This document shows, piece after piece, positions 41,407 through 48,296 of a DNA stretch of 64,000 nt (positions are counted from its first letter, which is position 1; every line of letters begins with the position of its first letter). The stretch comes from Klebsiella sp. BIGb0407. Its GTDB lineage: Bacteria; Pseudomonadota; Gammaproteobacteria; Enterobacterales; Enterobacteriaceae. A program made the translations under genes and the position numbers. The stretch covers positions 372,001-436,000 of the forward strand of contig NZ_JANUEQ010000003.1 in assembly GCF_024807845.1 (NCBI RefSeq). Direction: 5' to 3'. The notes under the pieces were generated by a model. That model was given only the letters and a program-made list of their open reading frames with translations, did no database searches and was not told the origin of the DNA.

Positions 41407-43332
41407 TTAGTCCAGGTATTTACGTTTAAACTGGCTGGCATCAATGTCATATTGCTTCATCTTGCGCCATAGCGTCGTACGGCCAATATTAAGCAACTGC
41501 GACATTTCCTGTACGCGGCCGCTCGTCACCCGGGCGGCATGAATAATTGCCTCTTTTTCGAGAGCCCTGAAAGTCAGACTGGCAGGTAACAAGGATGAGT
41601 GGCTTCGGTCTCCGGGACGTTCATTAAACAGATGTGCGGGAATATGACTTAAGCGAATACGGCCGTGCTCACTACTGATGGCAATATTTTCAATAACACT
41701 ATTAAGCTCGAAATCATTACCCGGCCAGGAGTACGCCACCAATTGTGCAAGGGCATCCTCATCCAGCTTGAAACGAGAAGAAAAACGTCTCTCAAGGCTG
41801 CGTAGCCGATTATGGACCAGAGACGGAATACTGCTGTTTCGTTCACGCAGAGGAGGAATCACAATTTCAAAGGAGTGTAATGCATAGTAAAGCTGCCTGC
41901 TAAAGCGGTCTTGCTCCACCAGATTGCCCAGATCTACTGTCGTCGTCGCGATAACTTTTACATCGACCGGGATCAGACGTCGTGCATCCAGCCGGGTGAG
42001 CACGCCTTGCTTAATCACCTGTAATAATATCGACTGAAGTTCCGGAGCCAGATATTCAATTTTATCCAGGAAAAGAGTTCCGCCATTCGCCAGTTCCAGA
42101 CGACTTAACCGTCCATTTTCATCATGAGTCTGCGAACTTCCCATAAAATCTGGTCCGAGAATATTATCGGCATACAGCTGACAATTCACCGCAATATAAG
42201 GGCCATCAGCATGTTCACTTTCATTGTGAATAGCCTGTGCAATCAGTTCCTTTCCTACTCCTTCTTCCCCACGAAGTAATACGGGAAAATTGCCCCTGGC
42301 AGCCTGGCGGCCAAAATGAATCAAACGTCGGGTTTCAGGATCGTCAGCCGACATTTGTTCGAAAGTGTGAGTGACTTTCCCCAGTTGACTGGTCATTAAC
42401 TGGCGCATCTGCTCAACCGGATGAAGCAGTAAGATAAAACTGTTCCCCTGATCTTCCACAATCGGCTTCAGGGTCACCACCGCATCAATAAACTGATGCT
42501 GGCTTTCAAATGTCACTTCGGCATGATTCAGGGATTTGGCATGTTTAATCGCTCGGCGTAACAGGGTCGGGAGCGTTATCAGCTCACTCAGATTCTTACC
42601 CTGGCTTCTCTGATTATCCAGATACAGCATATTAGCGGCCTGTACATTCAGAAATTGCAATACGCCCTGCTCATTCCAGGCCATTACCCCATCATCCATG
42701 CTTTCCAGCAACCCATACATTTGGTTCAAATGACGGTTAGATTCGGCCAGTAAACTGTCAGTTAATAATGAATTCCCCACTTCTCTGGCAATAGCGAGTG
42801 TTAACGAAAGATCGGCAACGGAGGCCTCACTGGCCAGGCAGCACAAAGCGATAGAACCAAATAACCGCCCGTTGTTATCAAATACCGGTGTCGAGCAGAA
42901 TGACCATGGGAACAATGCCTGCTTAAAATGCTGCTCACCGTAAGTTTTTATCGGCAGCCCCTGCATAGCTGCCAGTGAAAGTGCACTGGTTCCAATGATG
43001 CTTTCCGCGCAATAACTCCCGGTAAAAAAACCCAGTTCTTCAAGTTGTTCCCGTACTTGAGGATGTCCACAATGGCTAAGGATACAGGCTGACTCATCCA
43101 GAATAAAAAACGCGCAGTCCCGGCTATCCATAAACTCCCAGGCATCTTCCAGAGCGGCCTGTCCAATTGTCAGCAGCGCGGTTTTACGACGACAGATAGA
43201 CTCAAAGGTGAGCCCCTGAGCCTGGTGAGGAACGCCCCAGCTTTCCCGCTGCATAATTTTCCCACAACGGTGCCAGGATTGAGCGATAAATGAAGAAATA
43301 TCCTGCTCTGTTTTTGGATTCTGTGTCGCCAT
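41407..43332 (-). CDS. dhaR: Dihydroxyacetone kinase operon activator DhaR
   Basis: DhaR is the activator of the dhaKLM operon and, in E. coli, is switched by contact with DhaK (antagonist) and DhaL-ADP (coactivator). The 641 residues contain an N-terminal GAF-like region, a PAS region (about 200-310), an AAA+ domain (about 320-550; Walker A LLRGEEGVGKELIA, GGTLFLDKIEYL) and a C-terminal Fis-type helix-turn-helix (LLNIGRTTLWRKMKQYDI). The GAFTGA loop of sigma-54 activators is not present, consistent with action at sigma-70 promoters as reported for E. coli. It lies 127 bp after dhaD and before the glpF-like gene. Confidence 0.95.
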   Translation of the reverse strand: MATQNPKTEQDISSFIAQSWHRCGKIMQRESWGVPHQAQGLTFESICRRKTALLTIGQAALEDAWEFMDSRDCAFFILDESACILSHCGHPQVREQLEELGFFTGSYCAESIIGTSALSLAAMQGLPIKTYGEQHFKQALFPWSFCSTPVFDNNGRLFGSIALCCLASEASVADLSLTLAIAREVGNSLLTDSLLAESNRHLNQMYGLLESMDDGVMAWNEQGVLQFLNVQAANMLYLDNQRSQGKNLSELITLPTLLRRAIKHAKSLNHAEVTFESQHQFIDAVVTLKPIVEDQGNSFILLLHPVEQMRQLMTSQLGKVTHTFEQMSADDPETRRLIHFGRQAARGNFPVLLRGEEGVGKELIAQAIHNESEHADGPYIAVNCQLYADNILGPDFMGSSQTHDENGRLSRLELANGGTLFLDKIEYLAPELQSILLQVIKQGVLTRLDARRLIPVDVKVIATTTVDLGNLVEQDRFSRQLYYALHSFEIVIPPLRERNSSIPSLVHNRLRSLERRFSSRFKLDEDALAQLVAYSWPGNDFELNSVIENIAISSEHGRIRLSHIPAHLFNERPGDRSHSSLLPASLTFRALEKEAIIHAARVTSGRVQEMSQLLNIGRTTLWRKMKQYDIDASQFKRKYLD

Positions 43333-43422: not shown

Positions 43423-43450
43423 AAAATGCCCCTACCTGTTGCAGGGGCAA
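43423..43450 (-). terminator. Terminator of dhaD
   Basis: On the minus strand the stem TGCCCCT / AGGGGCA with a seven-base loop is followed by TTTTATC, 10 bp after the dhaD stop. It separates dhaD from dhaR, which therefore should have its own promoter in the following 90 bp. Confidence 0.8.
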
Positions 43451-43459
43451 GCGCTGAGG

Positions 43460-44560
43460 TTATTTACGGGCCAGCCATTGTTCACCAAAACGGTCTGCTG
43501 TAAGGATAGCGGCATAGACGCTTTCTGCTGAGACAGGGAACGGCATATTATGAATAGTTTCGCCAGGTGCACAGGTAGCTTTGGCAACCGCCATGATTTT
43601 TTCTTCAATACCTTCTTTAACGCCCATTTCTGCAAGAGTTACCGGCAGGCCGACTCGCTGGCAGAAGCCCAGCACGGTTTCAATTTCTGCCATTGGACTA
43701 TTTTGCAATACCAGCTGGGACAGCGTACCAAATGCGACTTTTTCACCATGGTATAAATGGTGGCACTCTTCAAGAATAGTAAAACCATTATGGATGGCGT
43801 GAGCCGCAGCAAGCCCGCTGCTTTCAAAACCAATACCACTCAAATAAGTATTCGCTTCGACAACTCGTTCCAGAGCGACAGTTACGACGCCCGCTTTTGC
43901 GGCAAGCAAAGCTTTTTCACCTTCCGTCATCAAGGTGTCGTAGCAAAGACGCGCCAGGCTCAGTGCCGCAGCCGTAGACTGACCACCCGCCATACTCACG
44001 GCTCTGGCGTCATAGCAGGCTTTTGCTTCAAACCAGGTTGAGAGTGCATCCCCCATGCCAGCTACCAGTAAACGTACCGGTGCTTTGGCAATAATTGCCG
44101 TATCCATTACCACCATATCGGGGTTTTTCGGATAAATAAGATATTCTTCAAACTCGCCTGATTCTGTATAGATAACAGATAGCGCACTGGTTGGTGCATC
44201 AGTGGAAGCAATGGTCGGAATAATGACGACCGGCAATTTCTGGTAATAACCTATCGCTTTTGCCGTATCCAGCGTTTTTCCGCCGCCGATACCGACCACA
44301 CCTTTACAACCCTTTTGTTTTAGAATGGCTATCAGGCGGTTAATTTCCACATGGCTGCATTCACCGTTGAAACGTTCTGCGTGACAATGAATGTTATGTT
44401 CATGCAGGCCATTGAGCACTTTATCCCCGGCCAGCTTCATCACGAAATCATCAGCTATCACAAAAAAGCTGTCTGCCAGATTTTTAGCATATTGACCAAA
44501 CAACGCAGATGCATCAGGACCCTGGAGATATTTTGCCGGAGATTGAATAACTTGTAGCAT
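43460..44560 (-). CDS. dhaD: Glycerol dehydrogenase DhaD (NAD-dependent, GldA family)
   Basis: This enzyme oxidises glycerol to dihydroxyacetone with NAD+. The 365-residue product starts MLQVIQSPAKYLQGPDA and is closest in memory to the DhaD of Klebsiella and Citrobacter dha regulons. NAD-binding GVVGIGGGKTLDTAKA is near 90-105, IPTIASTDAPTSALSVIY near 118, and metal ligands lie in GMGDALSTWFEAKA (Asp) and HAIHNGF...HHLYHGEKVAFG (two His). The ATG chosen gives the family length; an upstream in-frame start adds 13 residues. It is divergent from dhaKLM. Confidence 0.94.
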   Translation of the reverse strand: MLQVIQSPAKYLQGPDASALFGQYAKNLADSFFVIADDFVMKLAGDKVLNGLHEHNIHCHAERFNGECSHVEINRLIAILKQKGCKGVVGIGGGKTLDTAKAIGYYQKLPVVIIPTIASTDAPTSALSVIYTESGEFEEYLIYPKNPDMVVMDTAIIAKAPVRLLVAGMGDALSTWFEAKACYDARAVSMAGGQSTAAALSLARLCYDTLMTEGEKALLAAKAGVVTVALERVVEANTYLSGIGFESSGLAAAHAIHNGFTILEECHHLYHGEKVAFGTLSQLVLQNSPMAEIETVLGFCQRVGLPVTLAEMGVKEGIEEKIMAVAKATCAPGETIHNMPFPVSAESVYAAILTADRFGEQWLARK

Positions 44561-44715
44561 TCTCTTCACCCTCAAATTAAATATTGAACTCGTTGACATG
44601 ATGACGCCTGGCCTTGTTCACTTCTGCTAATCCATTTCAGCGGGAAGTTGAACACTAGCGGCGCGATAACATCACTCTAGAGCGGGTGGGCGGCAAAAAA
44701 ACTTTCATCAATTTT

Positions 44716-44730
44716 GTTCTTATATGAAAC
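44716..44730. promoter_or_regulatory. Putative DhaR operator, dhaD-side pair, copy 1
   Basis: GTTCTTATATGAAAC is the weakest of four matches to a shared palindrome of the form GTTYCA-N3-TGRAAC. Its centre is 32 bp from that of the next copy. Confidence 0.5.
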
Positions 44731-44747
44731 TAAAAATCAAAACGCAT

Positions 44748-44762
44748 GTTTCATTATGGAAC
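44748..44762. promoter_or_regulatory. Putative DhaR operator, dhaD-side pair, copy 2
   Basis: GTTTCATTATGGAAC differs by one base from the perfect palindrome at 44961. It is located 188 bp upstream of the dhaD start. Confidence 0.6.
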
Positions 44763-44960
44763 CTAAAACCAGATAAATAATCAGGATTGCGATCTCTATC
44801 CGTCTTTACATCACAATCTGTACCAGTACAGGAATGGAAGCGCTCCTCTCTGCCCGTTTAAAAAAATAATATTCTGCCTGAATACGGTAAGCCAGAGGAT
44901 TGATAGCTGCATCCAGAATGTAGCTCTGCCTCCCATTGTTGTTCTTTTTTAGTAAAATTC

Positions 44961-44975
44961 GTTCCATTATGGAAC
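44961..44975. promoter_or_regulatory. Putative DhaR operator, dhaK-side pair, copy 3
   Basis: GTTCCATTATGGAAC is a perfect inverted repeat (7 bp arms around one central base) and is the best member of the set. Confidence 0.65.
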
Positions 44976-44991
44976 AAATAAATACGTCCAA

Positions 44992-45006
44992 GTTTCACTC
45001 TGGAAC
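44992..45006. promoter_or_regulatory. Putative DhaR operator, dhaK-side pair, copy 4
   Basis: GTTTCACTCTGGAAC has its centre 31 bp from that of copy 3, about three helical turns, so a pair of dimers would bind on one face. It is about 140 bp upstream of the dhaK ATG. Confidence 0.55.
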
Positions 45007-45145
45007 CTATTTTCTCGCTGTATTTCTTTTCTTCTGTCGAAGCCAAAATCACTCTATCGACCATGGGAGAAAATCTCATGCCGCTTGCTTACATCGGGCC
45101 AGGATAAACCCTGTGACCCCATTAATATTATGCGGAGTATAGAAA

Positions 45146-46216
45146 ATGAAAAAACTGATTAACCGTGTCGAAGATGTACTCAGTGAACAGCTTATCGGCC
45201 TTGCTAAAGCTCACCCTGAACTACAACTGCATCAGGACCCGGTTTATGTCACCCGAGCGGATGCCCCGGTCGCCGGGAAAGTCGCGCTGTTATCCGGCGG
45301 TGGCAGTGGCCACGAACCTATGCACTGTGGGTTTATCGGAAAAGGAATGCTAACCGGCGCTTGCCCGGGCGAAATTTTCACCTCTCCTACACCAGACAAA
45401 ATGTTCGAATGTGCAATGCATATTGATGGAGGAGAAGGCATCCTGCTGATTATTAAAAACTACACCGGTGATATTCTTAATTTTGAAACTGCCACCGAGC
45501 TATTGCACGAAGGCGGCGTAAAAGTGGCGACAATCGTGGTAGATGATGACGTCGCCGTCAAAGACAGTCTCTACACCGCCGGACGCCGTGGCGTAGCTAA
45601 TACGGTGTTGATTGAAAAATTAGTCGGTGCAGCAGCAGAACGCGGAGACTCTCTGGAAGCCTGTGCCGAACTGGGACGCAAGCTAAATAATCAGGGCCAT
45701 TCTATCGGCATTGCCTTAAGTGCCTGTACAGTTCCTGCCGCAGGGATCCCTTCTTTTGAACTTCAGGATAATGAAATGGAGTTCGGCGTCGGGATCCACG
45801 GAGAGCCGGGTATCGACCGTCGCAGTTTCACCTCTCTGGACAACACCGTCGATGAGATGTTTAGCACTTTACTGGAAAATGGCGATTACACGCGTACGTT
45901 ACGTCAATGGGACAGTGTCAAAGGCAACTGGCTGGAAATAAAACAAGCAAAACAGGCACTCCAGCGCACAGATAAGGTTATTGCCATGGTCAACAACCTC
46001 GGTGCAACCCCTCTTTCAGAGTTATACGGCGTCTATAATCGACTGGAAAAATGCTGTCAGGAAGCCGGTATCACTATCGTTCGGAACCTGGTCGGCACCT
46101 GGTGTACTTCCCTGGATATGGAAGGCTTCTCTATTACTTTACTGAAAGCCGACGATGAGACGCTCACCTTGTGGGACGCGCCAGTTCACACCCCTGCCCT
46201 GAACTGGGGATACTAA
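45146..46216 (+). CDS. dhaK: PTS-dependent dihydroxyacetone kinase, Dha-binding subunit DhaK
   Basis: DhaK binds dihydroxyacetone covalently as a hemiaminal on a histidine and receives phosphate from DhaL-ATP. It has 356 residues, as in E. coli. The substrate histidine is in EFGVGIHGEPGIDRR (about H218), and the glycine-rich LSGGGSGHEPMHCGFIGKGMLTGACPGEIF lies near 48-77. In E. coli it also inhibits DhaR when substrate is absent. It is the first gene of dhaK-dhaL-dhaM, preceded by the paired palindromes. Confidence 0.98.
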   Translation: MKKLINRVEDVLSEQLIGLAKAHPELQLHQDPVYVTRADAPVAGKVALLSGGGSGHEPMHCGFIGKGMLTGACPGEIFTSPTPDKMFECAMHIDGGEGILLIIKNYTGDILNFETATELLHEGGVKVATIVVDDDVAVKDSLYTAGRRGVANTVLIEKLVGAAAERGDSLEACAELGRKLNNQGHSIGIALSACTVPAAGIPSFELQDNEMEFGVGIHGEPGIDRRSFTSLDNTVDEMFSTLLENGDYTRTLRQWDSVKGNWLEIKQAKQALQRTDKVIAMVNNLGATPLSELYGVYNRLEKCCQEAGITIVRNLVGTWCTSLDMEGFSITLLKADDETLTLWDAPVHTPALNWGY

Positions 46217-46226
46217 GGAGATAATG

Positions 46227-46859
46227 ATGTCACTTACTAAAAATCAAATTGTTAACTGGCTCTACCGCTGTGGAGACATTTTTGCCACTGAACGTGATTT
46301 TTTGACCGGTCTGGACCGCGAGGTTGGCGATGCCGATCACGGGCTGAATATGAATCGTGGCTTTAGCAAAGTGGTGGAAAAACTGCCTTCAATTGCTGAT
46401 AAAGATATTGGTTTTATTCTAAAAAATACCGGTATGGTCCTTCTCTCTAATGTCGGGGGTGCCAGCGGCCCCTTGTTTGGAACCTTCTTTATTCGTGCGG
46501 CCCAAGTCACTCAAGCCCACCAAAGCCTGACGCTGGATGAGCTATATCAAATGATTAACGAAGGCGCTGACGGGGTGGTTAACCGAGGTAAGGCGGAGCC
46601 TGGCGACAAAACAATGTGTGATGTCTGGCTTCCGGTAGCAAAATCACTCCAGCAATCCAGCGAGCAACATTTATCGCTACAAACCGCACTGGATAACGCC
46701 TGCCAGGTCGCAGAACAAGCCGCACGGGCAACGATAACCATGCAAGCCCGTAAAGGGCGCGCCAGCTATCTGGGTGAGCGTAGCATTGGGCACCAGGATC
46801 CGGGAGCAACTTCGGTATTGTTTATGATGCAGATGCTGGCCGCAGCGGCCAGAGAGTAA
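46227..46859 (+). CDS. dhaL: PTS-dependent dihydroxyacetone kinase, ADP-binding subunit DhaL
   Basis: DhaL holds a permanently bound ADP that DhaM rephosphorylates, then phosphorylates Dha on DhaK. The 210 residues contain the Mg-ADP aspartates in DREVGDADHGLNMNRGF (near 28-44), GGASGPLFGTFF and the ARKGRASYLGERSIGHQDPGATS block. Of two adjacent ATGs I chose the second, which has AAGGAG six bases upstream and matches E. coli MSL. ADP-DhaL is a coactivator of DhaR in E. coli. Confidence 0.97.
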   Translation: MSLTKNQIVNWLYRCGDIFATERDFLTGLDREVGDADHGLNMNRGFSKVVEKLPSIADKDIGFILKNTGMVLLSNVGGASGPLFGTFFIRAAQVTQAHQSLTLDELYQMINEGADGVVNRGKAEPGDKTMCDVWLPVAKSLQQSSEQHLSLQTALDNACQVAEQAARATITMQARKGRASYLGERSIGHQDPGATSVLFMMQMLAAAARE

Positions 46860-46874
46860 GCGAAGGATAAGGCG

Positions 46875-48296
46875 ATGGTGAATCTGGTAATTGTTTCTCA
46901 TAGTGCCCTTTTGGGCCAGGGAGTCGGGGAATTAGCCCGGCAAATGTTGAGGGGGGATGGCTGTCGGCTGGCCATCGCCGCCGGGATAGACGATCCCGAA
47001 AATCCTATTGGTACCGACCCCATCAAAGTGATGGAAGCGATTGAGTCAGTATCAGATACAGACCATATCCTGGTGATGATGGATATGGGGAGCGCTTTGC
47101 TCAGTGCCGAGACGGCACTAGACTTGCTTGACCCTGCTATCGCGCAGAAAGTGCGTCTGTGTGCTGCCCCTCTGGTGGAAGGTACACTGGCTGCCACCGT
47201 CAGCGCGGCTAGCGGAGCCGGTATTGAAAAAGTGATGATGGATGCACAAAATGCCCTGCTGGCAAAACGCATCCAACTGGGGCTACCCGCACAGGAAGAT
47301 GTGATACAAACCCCGGAGCTGGCTCACCGGGAAGATACTGATGCTCAATCAATCACCGTTGTTATCCACAACCCTAACGGTTTGCATGTTCGCCCGGCAG
47401 CGCGTTTGATTGATGCCCTGGCAGGGTTTGATGCCCATCTGCTATTAGAAAAAGACGGTAAATGCATCAAACCTGACAGCATTAATCAGATTGCTCTCTT
47501 GCAGGTTCGCCGCCACGACAAACTTCGGCTTATCGCGTCAGGCGCCCAGGCAACAGAAGCATTAACGGCGTTTCGGGCTCTGGCAGAAGAGAACTTTGGT
47601 GAACATATCGGCGAGGCATATCAAAAAACACCCGCTGAGGGAAAAACGAACATCCGTGGCCAGGTGTTACAGTACGCTCCGGTGGATTTTGCCCTGGAAA
47701 AATCGGTCAGCTCTCAGTCGGATAATGAATCCAGACGCCTGCGAAAAGCCATTAATCAGACGCTTGGCGATATTAACCGTCTGACCCAGCTCGCCGGTGA
47801 AAAGTATTCCACCGATATTGCGGCTATCTTCTCCGGACATCATCTGCTGCTGGACGATAAGGAATTGTTCGACAGTGCCTGCGAACTGATACGAACTGAC
47901 CAGTACAGCGCTGAATGGGCCTGGTCACAGATTATGACCGAGCTGAGTAATGAGTATCAAAAACTGGATGATGCCTATCTGCAGGCCCGTTACATCGATA
48001 TCGAGGATATTTTGCACCGTACCCTTTGCCATCTGAAACAGATGACGGATGTCTTTCCGATATTACAGCACCAGACCATCCTTGTTGCCGATGATATCTA
48101 TCCTTCGCTGGTGGTTCAGCTGGATGCCCGTAAAGTGGCCGGGATTATCCTGAAAAAAGGGAGCGCGTTATCTCATAGCGCGATTATTGCCAGAGAAGCA
48201 GGGATCCTTTATCTCAGCCAGCAAGGCGATGCGCTCCACGGCTTACGCAATGGTGAGTTCCTGACGCTGGATAACGTCCCCACCCGTTCTCAGTAA
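46875..48296 (+). CDS. dhaM: PTS-dependent dihydroxyacetone kinase, phosphotransferase subunit DhaM
   Basis: DhaM links the kinase to the PTS: phosphate passes from EI and HPr (ptsH/ptsI in this window) through its histidines to DhaL-bound ADP. The 473 residues have three domains: a mannose-type EIIA (about 1-135, active H9 in VIVSHSALLGQG), an HPr domain (about 155-245, His in NPNGLHVRPAARL) and an N-terminal enzyme-I-like domain (about 260-473, with GSALSHSAIIAREAGI). This is the three-domain E. coli form. It ends before a strong hairpin. Confidence 0.97.
   Translation: MVNLVIVSHSALLGQGVGELARQMLRGDGCRLAIAAGIDDPENPIGTDPIKVMEAIESVSDTDHILVMMDMGSALLSAETALDLLDPAIAQKVRLCAAPLVEGTLAATVSAASGAGIEKVMMDAQNALLAKRIQLGLPAQEDVIQTPELAHREDTDAQSITVVIHNPNGLHVRPAARLIDALAGFDAHLLLEKDGKCIKPDSINQIALLQVRRHDKLRLIASGAQATEALTAFRALAEENFGEHIGEAYQKTPAEGKTNIRGQVLQYAPVDFALEKSVSSQSDNESRRLRKAINQTLGDINRLTQLAGEKYSTDIAAIFSGHHLLLDDKELFDSACELIRTDQYSAEWAWSQIMTELSNEYQKLDDAYLQARYIDIEDILHRTLCHLKQMTDVFPILQHQTILVADDIYPSLVVQLDARKVAGIILKKGSALSHSAIIAREAGILYLSQQGDALHGLRNGEFLTLDNVPTRSQ

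Follow-up and report, generated by a model that had tools for sequence, protein, structure and literature searches.

Paired 15 bp inverted repeats upstream of dhaD and dhaK as predicted tandem operators of DhaR

Introduction

Which protein reads the four palindromic sequences that lie between dhaD and dhaKLM in Klebsiella sp. BIGb0407, and how would they serve transcription in both directions? In the window (the whole stretch of DNA analyzed, 64,000 nucleotides), the glycerol dehydrogenase gene dhaD (43460–44560, minus strand) lies opposite the plus-strand genes dhaK (45146–46216; TIGR02363, 494.6 bits against a cut-off of 406.25), dhaL (46224–46859; TIGR02365, 264.3 against 138.3 bits) and dhaM (46875–48296; NF008478, 717.9 against 520 bits), with the four copies between them, while dhaR (41407–43332, minus strand) and a glpF-like gene are located behind dhaD. 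The dhaR product, of 641 amino acids, has GAF, PAS, AAA and Fis-type helix-turn-helix (HTH_8) domains according to Pfam; it scored 1010.7 bits with the NCBIfam equivalog model for DhaR (NF008485, cut-off 551) and is encoded beside dhaKLM and dhaD. Its residues 11–318 are similar in sequence to a regulator of solved structure (4lrx; also 4lry and 4lrz), and from this similarity the sensor part is predicted to bind DhaK and DhaL.

The control of dhaKLM by DhaR is already known in E. coli. In E. coli and Klebsiella, DhaR is described as kept inactive by DhaK and as activated by dephosphorylated DhaL (PMC5890353, PMC12821955). It is also described as binding dihydroxyacetone phosphate in vitro (PMC6775132).

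Results

Two pairs of inverted repeats

Three of the four copies match GTTYCA-N3-TGRAAC exactly: the distal operator of dhaD (GTTTCATTATGGAAC, 44748–44762), the distal operator of dhaK (GTTCCATTATGGAAC, 44961–44975), and the promoter-proximal operator of dhaK (GTTTCACTCTGGAAC, 44992–45006). The original prediction had counted a fourth copy of the same form, the promoter-proximal operator of dhaD (GTTCTTATATGAAAC, 44716–44730, which reads GTTTCATATAAGAAC towards dhaD); this one turned out to be weak, with two mismatches. The remaining features of the predicted layout were found as described: start-to-start spacings within the pairs of 32 and 31 bp, one perfect inverted repeat (both arms of the copy at 44961), and distances of 156 bp to dhaD (44716 to 44560) and 140 bp to dhaK (45006 to 45146). 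The distance to dhaD is correct if the start of this gene is taken by homology as 44560, the start in common with an annotated Klebsiella gene, and not as the first ATG of the ORF at 44599. We also observed that the 44716–44730 operator is degenerate on its dhaD side, and that many relatives likewise have a degenerate outer half; in about half of 56 dhaD promoters position 11 is A and not G, as if a weak half-site had been retained.

Allowing one mismatch, the window contained five matches, two of them outside the dhaD/dhaK region, against a mean of 0.58 in shuffled sequences. Pairs spaced 30–33 bp occurred twice in the window and not once in 300 first-order Markov simulations of it, and a chance origin of the palindromes was therefore rejected, by the shuffle for the matches and by the simulation for the pairs. 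The 5.59 Mb genome has nine exact copies, three here and six elsewhere. Five of those six are inside ORFs of at least 90 amino acids and one is not; being unpaired and mostly inside ORFs, the lone copies were not adopted as extra targets. Pair scans of the source genome, covering spacings of 31 and 32 bp with up to three mismatches, returned one place at each spacing, both in this region, so the genome-wide count that had been proposed as a check left the two dha pairs as the only ones at these spacings.

Conservation in loci with DhaR

We assembled a set of loci consisting of 76 named loci (DhaR of 36–92% identity), E. coli K-12, two plasmid loci and stretches of further genomes. Counts refer to 86 loci with DhaR relatives (1.82 Mb, window included), with at most two mismatches per copy and three in all. 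The 86 include L122–L124 and L127–L129; they leave out L121 and L125 (repeats of L074 and L061), L126, which holds dhaR only (its genome, G028, has a pair before dhaD), and L038, a dha locus of E. coli that is interrupted by insertion elements and in which pairs lie before dha genes too. The 86 loci are not independent, as L127 repeats L104 and L036 is close to L040.

We found 138 pairs spaced 30–33 bp in these loci, each within 450 bp of the start of a dha-cluster gene; across spacings of 16–100 bp, there was a single further pair, spaced 69 bp and away from dha genes. A pair was present in 77 of the 86 loci, the nine without being eight Yersinia loci and L112. The eight Yersinia stretches have no dhaK. 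In all eight genomes a pair without mismatches was found elsewhere (scan at spacing 32), directly before dhaD (71–73%), which is followed by dhaK (74–75%), and G063 has a second pair in addition. L112 encodes DhaR (36%) and dhaK, yet no pair was detected in the locus, nor in its genome in the scan at spacing 32. In four loci with a DhaR of 36–37% the spacing of the pairs is 33 bp, and in three of the four the copies are weaker. Scanning upstream of dhaKLM in other genomes, as the original prediction had suggested, thus revealed pairs before dhaK or before a dhaD–dhaK operon in nearly all DhaR loci. As a side observation, operator pairs are present at two dha loci of Yersinia artesiana (L039, L094), a genome with two DhaR genes, 90% and 52% identical to that of the window.

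An alignment of 26 divergent dhaD/dhaK regions was used to measure conservation as mean majority frequency. This was 0.86–0.90 in the operators, 0.58 in the spacers between them, 0.52 in the middle of the region and 0.69 over the whole. Single exact copies do occur six times elsewhere in the source genome, as they might if these were chance repeats or functionless relics; however, the simulations gave no pairs at all, and the operators are far better conserved than the spacers that separate them, which leaves such an origin a negligible probability.

Co-occurrence with DhaR

The source genome and 59 relatives were scanned for pairs at spacings 31 and 32. A DhaR of at least 55% identity was found in eight of these 60 genomes, and all eight carry a pair with at most two mismatches. 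The other 52 gave one match with three mismatches (G017), located within an ORF and close to the 3' end of that ORF. Two of the 52, G025 and G044 (DhaR of 35–37%), were counted as misses because their pairs, spaced 33 bp, fall outside the spacings scanned. A control with the reversed pattern yielded one match in one genome at spacing 31 and none at 32.

We then considered 37 whole genomes with DhaR, reached from 79 named loci and scanned at the same spacings. The pair was found in 35, at 34 places with spacing 31 and 31 places with spacing 32, against one and zero for the reversed control; the two genomes with no match (G103 and G104) have 33 bp pairs in their loci. Sixty of the 65 places were assigned to known loci by overlapping coordinates and the remaining five were read individually. 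All but one of the 65 are at dha genes, the exception lying beside a second DhaR-family gene in Serratia microhaemolytica. Pairs stay with dhaK or dhaD even where dhaR is distant: in three Citrobacter genomes one pair is 151–152 bp before a dhaK whose contig is not that of dhaR, and a fourth case is G026, with the pair 152 bp before a dhaK that is about 2 Mb from dhaR. Neither of the outcomes named beforehand as contrary to the prediction, many unrelated matches or a lack of conservation near dhaK in genomes with dhaR, was seen. The proposal of one dimeric regulator for both directions, most simply DhaR, is supported by this tracking of DhaR by the pairs and their near confinement to dha genes.

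The second regulator of Serratia microhaemolytica (G091) is 37.6% identical to DhaR and scores 796 bits against the cut-off of 551. In the stretch L185 (5049–11186) it has glyoxylate-carboligase-like and related ORFs on one side and a BCCT transporter gene on the other, the first ORFs of the stretch having been named by eye. A pair spaced 31 bp lies before the transporter gene, and the stretch read has DhaL without dhaK.

A different regulator acting on dha genes, such as NtrC or the LysR-type YgfI (DhfA), might bind the palindromes instead. NtrC genomic SELEX lists the dhaK–dhaR spacer of E. coli, and the NtrC box TGCACCAnnnTGGTGCA has CCA-N3-TGG in common with the motif (PMC8743547). For YgfI, ChIP-exo places binding upstream of dhaKLM, and expression of dhaKLM is reported to be lower in a ygfI mutant (PMC9068703). 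Moreover, G019, with dhaK at 73%, has one exact copy 43 bp before dhaK (L177:4559–4573) in a genome with no pair and no protein above the DhaR cut-off (best 339 against 551 bits); the copy may be a relic or serve another regulator, and it counts against strict exclusiveness of the motif to DhaR. Nevertheless, the pairs track DhaR over 60 genomes; they are confined to dha genes in the scanned genomes, whereas NtrC is described as a global regulator with 93 E. coli targets (PMC8743547); and the second DhaR-family gene of Serratia has its own adjoining pair although dhaD and dhaK are not its neighbours. We therefore consider this alternative very unlikely. NtrC and YgfI do not explain why pairs follow DhaR, yet they could add inputs. 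The CCA-N3-TGG core common to the NtrC box and the operator might explain the SELEX hit in the spacer of E. coli K-12 (L035:4840–5066).

Promoter geometry

Promoters were collected from pairs within 200 bp of a gene start (58 dhaK, dhaK1-type kinases included, 56 dhaD and 20 dhaB, before removal of identical rows), and bases 21–60 after the proximal copy were scored with –10 hexamer weights; these promoters are related by descent. The best –10 started at base 37–38 in 46 of 57 dhaK and in 56 of 56 dhaD promoters, and at base 36–37 in 18 of 20 dhaB promoters. The hexamers are mostly CAGAAT or CACAAT at dhaK, TACAGT, TATAGT or TAGAGT at dhaD, and TAAAGT or TAGAGT at dhaB. In the window, the candidates are TAGAGT for dhaD (44674–44679, minus strand, base 37) and CAAAAT for dhaK (45044–45049, plus strand, base 38), with mean majority frequencies of 0.955 and 0.942 in the 26 regions. 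The –35 place is mostly a T-tract, and the best match to TTGACA, with spacers of 16–18, was only two of six bases in 34 of 57 dhaK, 42 of 56 dhaD and 19 of 20 dhaB promoters. No full sigma-70 promoter with a –35 was found in 44560–45180 (shuffles give 1.4), which fits dependence on an activator without proving it. It is probable that the two pairs serve separate promoters, each with a –10 of its own.

The constancy of this geometry bears on the possibility that the pairs mainly repress, for instance dhaR itself, and that dhaK and dhaD are activated from elsewhere. DhaR represses its own gene in E. coli. Compatible with this, 12 of 79 loci have dhaK and dhaR side by side in divergent orientation, and the pair falls in the space that separates the two genes. 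Against it, the distance from pair to –10 is constant at dhaK, dhaD and dhaB, pairs lie before dhaK with no dhaR nearby, and the 127 bp before dhaR in the window, the dhaD–dhaR gap, hold no operator copy with fewer than four mismatches. Mainly repressive pairs are thus highly unlikely, and activation of dhaK and dhaD from the pairs is preferred. Within the dhaD–dhaR gap we noted a terminator-like hairpin with a T-rich tail (43427–43449, minus strand), one being found where shuffles average 2.5; dhaR may therefore have its own promoter. Simple co-transcription of dhaR with dhaD, and hence self-activation, was dropped in view of this hairpin, although shuffles yield more such structures.

DhaR and the sigma factor

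Its domain families, Sigma54_activat and HTH_8, would fit a DhaR that works as a classical enhancer-binding protein and stimulates sigma-54 promoters from these sites. DhaR has been counted among the enhancer-binding proteins of E. coli (PMC8743547), and DhaR and DhaQ groups of Clostridiales among sigma-54 activators, with dhaKLM as the DhaQ target (PMC6615313). However, the GAFTGA motif was absent in 12 aligned DhaR proteins, and in alignments to CapR, NifA and NtrC three residues of this site are deleted and the next ones changed. The DE of Walker B is likewise replaced in the 12 proteins, by DK, EK, EQ or EN. Judged from its sequence, DhaR is without parts needed for the work of a sigma-54 activator. 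E. coli DhaR has indeed been described as lacking GAFTGA, as sigma-70 dependent, and as wrongly ranked among sigma-54 activators, with reference to a 2005 E. coli study (PMC3162934).

The DNA does not favor sigma-54 either. The –10 is constant and of sigma-70 type, and among the best five sigma-54-like matches per strand in 44560–45145 there was no suitably placed GG-N10-GC for dhaK or dhaD; the only one is at 45086–45101 on the minus strand, more than 500 bp from dhaD. Window-wide, 337 matches against a shuffle mean of 326.7 correspond to the chance level. Action of DhaR on sigma-54 promoters is accordingly highly improbable.

The helix region IGRTTLWRK hardly varies among the 12 proteins, as would suit an operator that is itself constant.

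A third conserved element

Upstream of the dhaD pair there is a further conserved element, ACGGATAGAGATCGCA (44788–44803, minus strand; mean majority frequency 0.882), which is CRP-like, with a weaker counterpart, GTAGCTCTGCCTCCCA, upstream of the dhaK pair (44920–44935, plus strand; 0.733). Such an element, at a nearly fixed distance from the distal operator, is common to dhaK, dhaD and dhaB promoters. In most dhaK promoters, and in most dhaD promoters of the Enterobacteriaceae type, TCNCA lies 25–26 bases upstream of the distal copy; most dhaB promoters have TCACA there, and Serratia and Yersinia dhaD promoters have GTGCGCCAGYTCKCTT and similar sequences at that place, best read one base further. 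Compared with both halves of the CRP consensus TGTGA-N6-TCACA, the matches averaged 5.64 of 10 before dhaK at the conserved register (2.58 over all registers), 4.21 before dhaD (2.48; Serratia and Yersinia shifted by one base) and 5.75 before dhaB (2.70, another register reaching 5.15), mostly with one good half. In its register and in the symmetry that it partly shows, the element is reminiscent of a CRP site with its centre about 41 bp from the distal operator, an identification we offer tentatively and at somewhat less than even odds. It was not adopted as a proven CRP site; YgfI or another protein could bind.

A broader and more doubtful proposal, though one we would not dismiss, is that dha promoters of Enterobacterales are built to a single, rigid composite plan, in which a CRP-like site lies about 41 bp (four turns) upstream from the distal operator, two DhaR dimers bind in phase, a T-tract stands where the –35 would be and the –10 is fixed, and that the DhaR/DhaL module with the same operator pair was reused in the glyoxylate-carboligase-like/BCCT-transporter cluster of Serratia microhaemolytica. 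If true, the composite design would let catabolite control and dihydroxyacetone sensing be read out on one DNA face.

Discussion

The sites have the properties looked for in a DhaR operator: the inverted repeat is 15 bp long, its copies are paired at a distance of about three turns, and the pairs precede dha genes in genomes with DhaR. We consider it very likely that each pair is a tandem DhaR operator, predicted from the sequence to hold two in-phase dimers that activate a sigma-70 promoter. The direct observations are the sites, their spacing and conservation, their co-occurrence with DhaR, the constant place of the –10 and the missing GAFTGA; the proposed mechanism builds on them as follows. 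Each 15 bp repeat would be contacted by one DhaR dimer via the Fis-type helix-turn-helix at the C-terminus of the protein, and the two dimers of a pair would occupy the same DNA face, with about three helical turns between them. The candidate –10 hexamer begins at base 36–38 beyond the proximal copy and lacks a good –35; DhaR would accordingly recruit sigma-70 RNA polymerase, to dhaKLM one way and to dhaD the other. If transcription starts about seven bases after the hexamer, the operator centres would be near –56 and –88.

The feature is a solid but largely expected regulatory element, and nothing known is overturned. What is added here is a well-tested definition of the operator, a record of its occurrence across genera, and a promoter geometry that is constant. 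In the portions of the literature searched, which did not extend to the 2005 E. coli DhaR study, we found no DhaR operator sequence; we make no claim that the operators are unpublished. The definition (15 bp, paired, 31–32 bp) and the promoter geometry are usable for the dha regulon, which is employed in 1,3-propanediol production. DhaR also provides a clear example of a one-time sigma-54 activator that apparently acts at sigma-70 promoters, with a mechanism directly testable in E. coli K-12.

Comparison with known systems

The closest comparison is the DhaR–dhaKLM system of E. coli K-12, which has one pair, GTTTCATAGTGAAAC and GTTCCATATTGAAAC, 31 bp apart and 118 bp before dhaK; a CACAAT hexamer starts at base 37 after the proximal copy, and DhaR is 69% identical. 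It differs in that the single pair lies between dhaK and dhaR, whereas the window has dhaD between these genes, and two pairs. In the dha regulon of Klebsiella pneumoniae and Citrobacter freundii, read from copies on plasmids, dhaD and dhaK have the same divergent layout with two pairs, but dhaB and dhaT are present as well, and dhaB is preceded by a third pair; no match to dhaB, dhaT or the neighbour orfW was found within the 64 kb window.

TyrR, HupR and VpsR have DNA sites and signals other than those of DhaR. They belong to the protein family of DhaR, and they are described as sharing sigma-70 dependence (TyrR and HupR) or a defective GAFTGA (VpsR) with it (PMC3162934). The NtrC box of E. 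coli is likewise a palindrome with a three-base centre and a CCA-N3-TGG core, but it is described as 17 bp long with GCA/TGC ends, while the DhaR operator is 15 bp long with GTT/AAC ends (PMC8743547).
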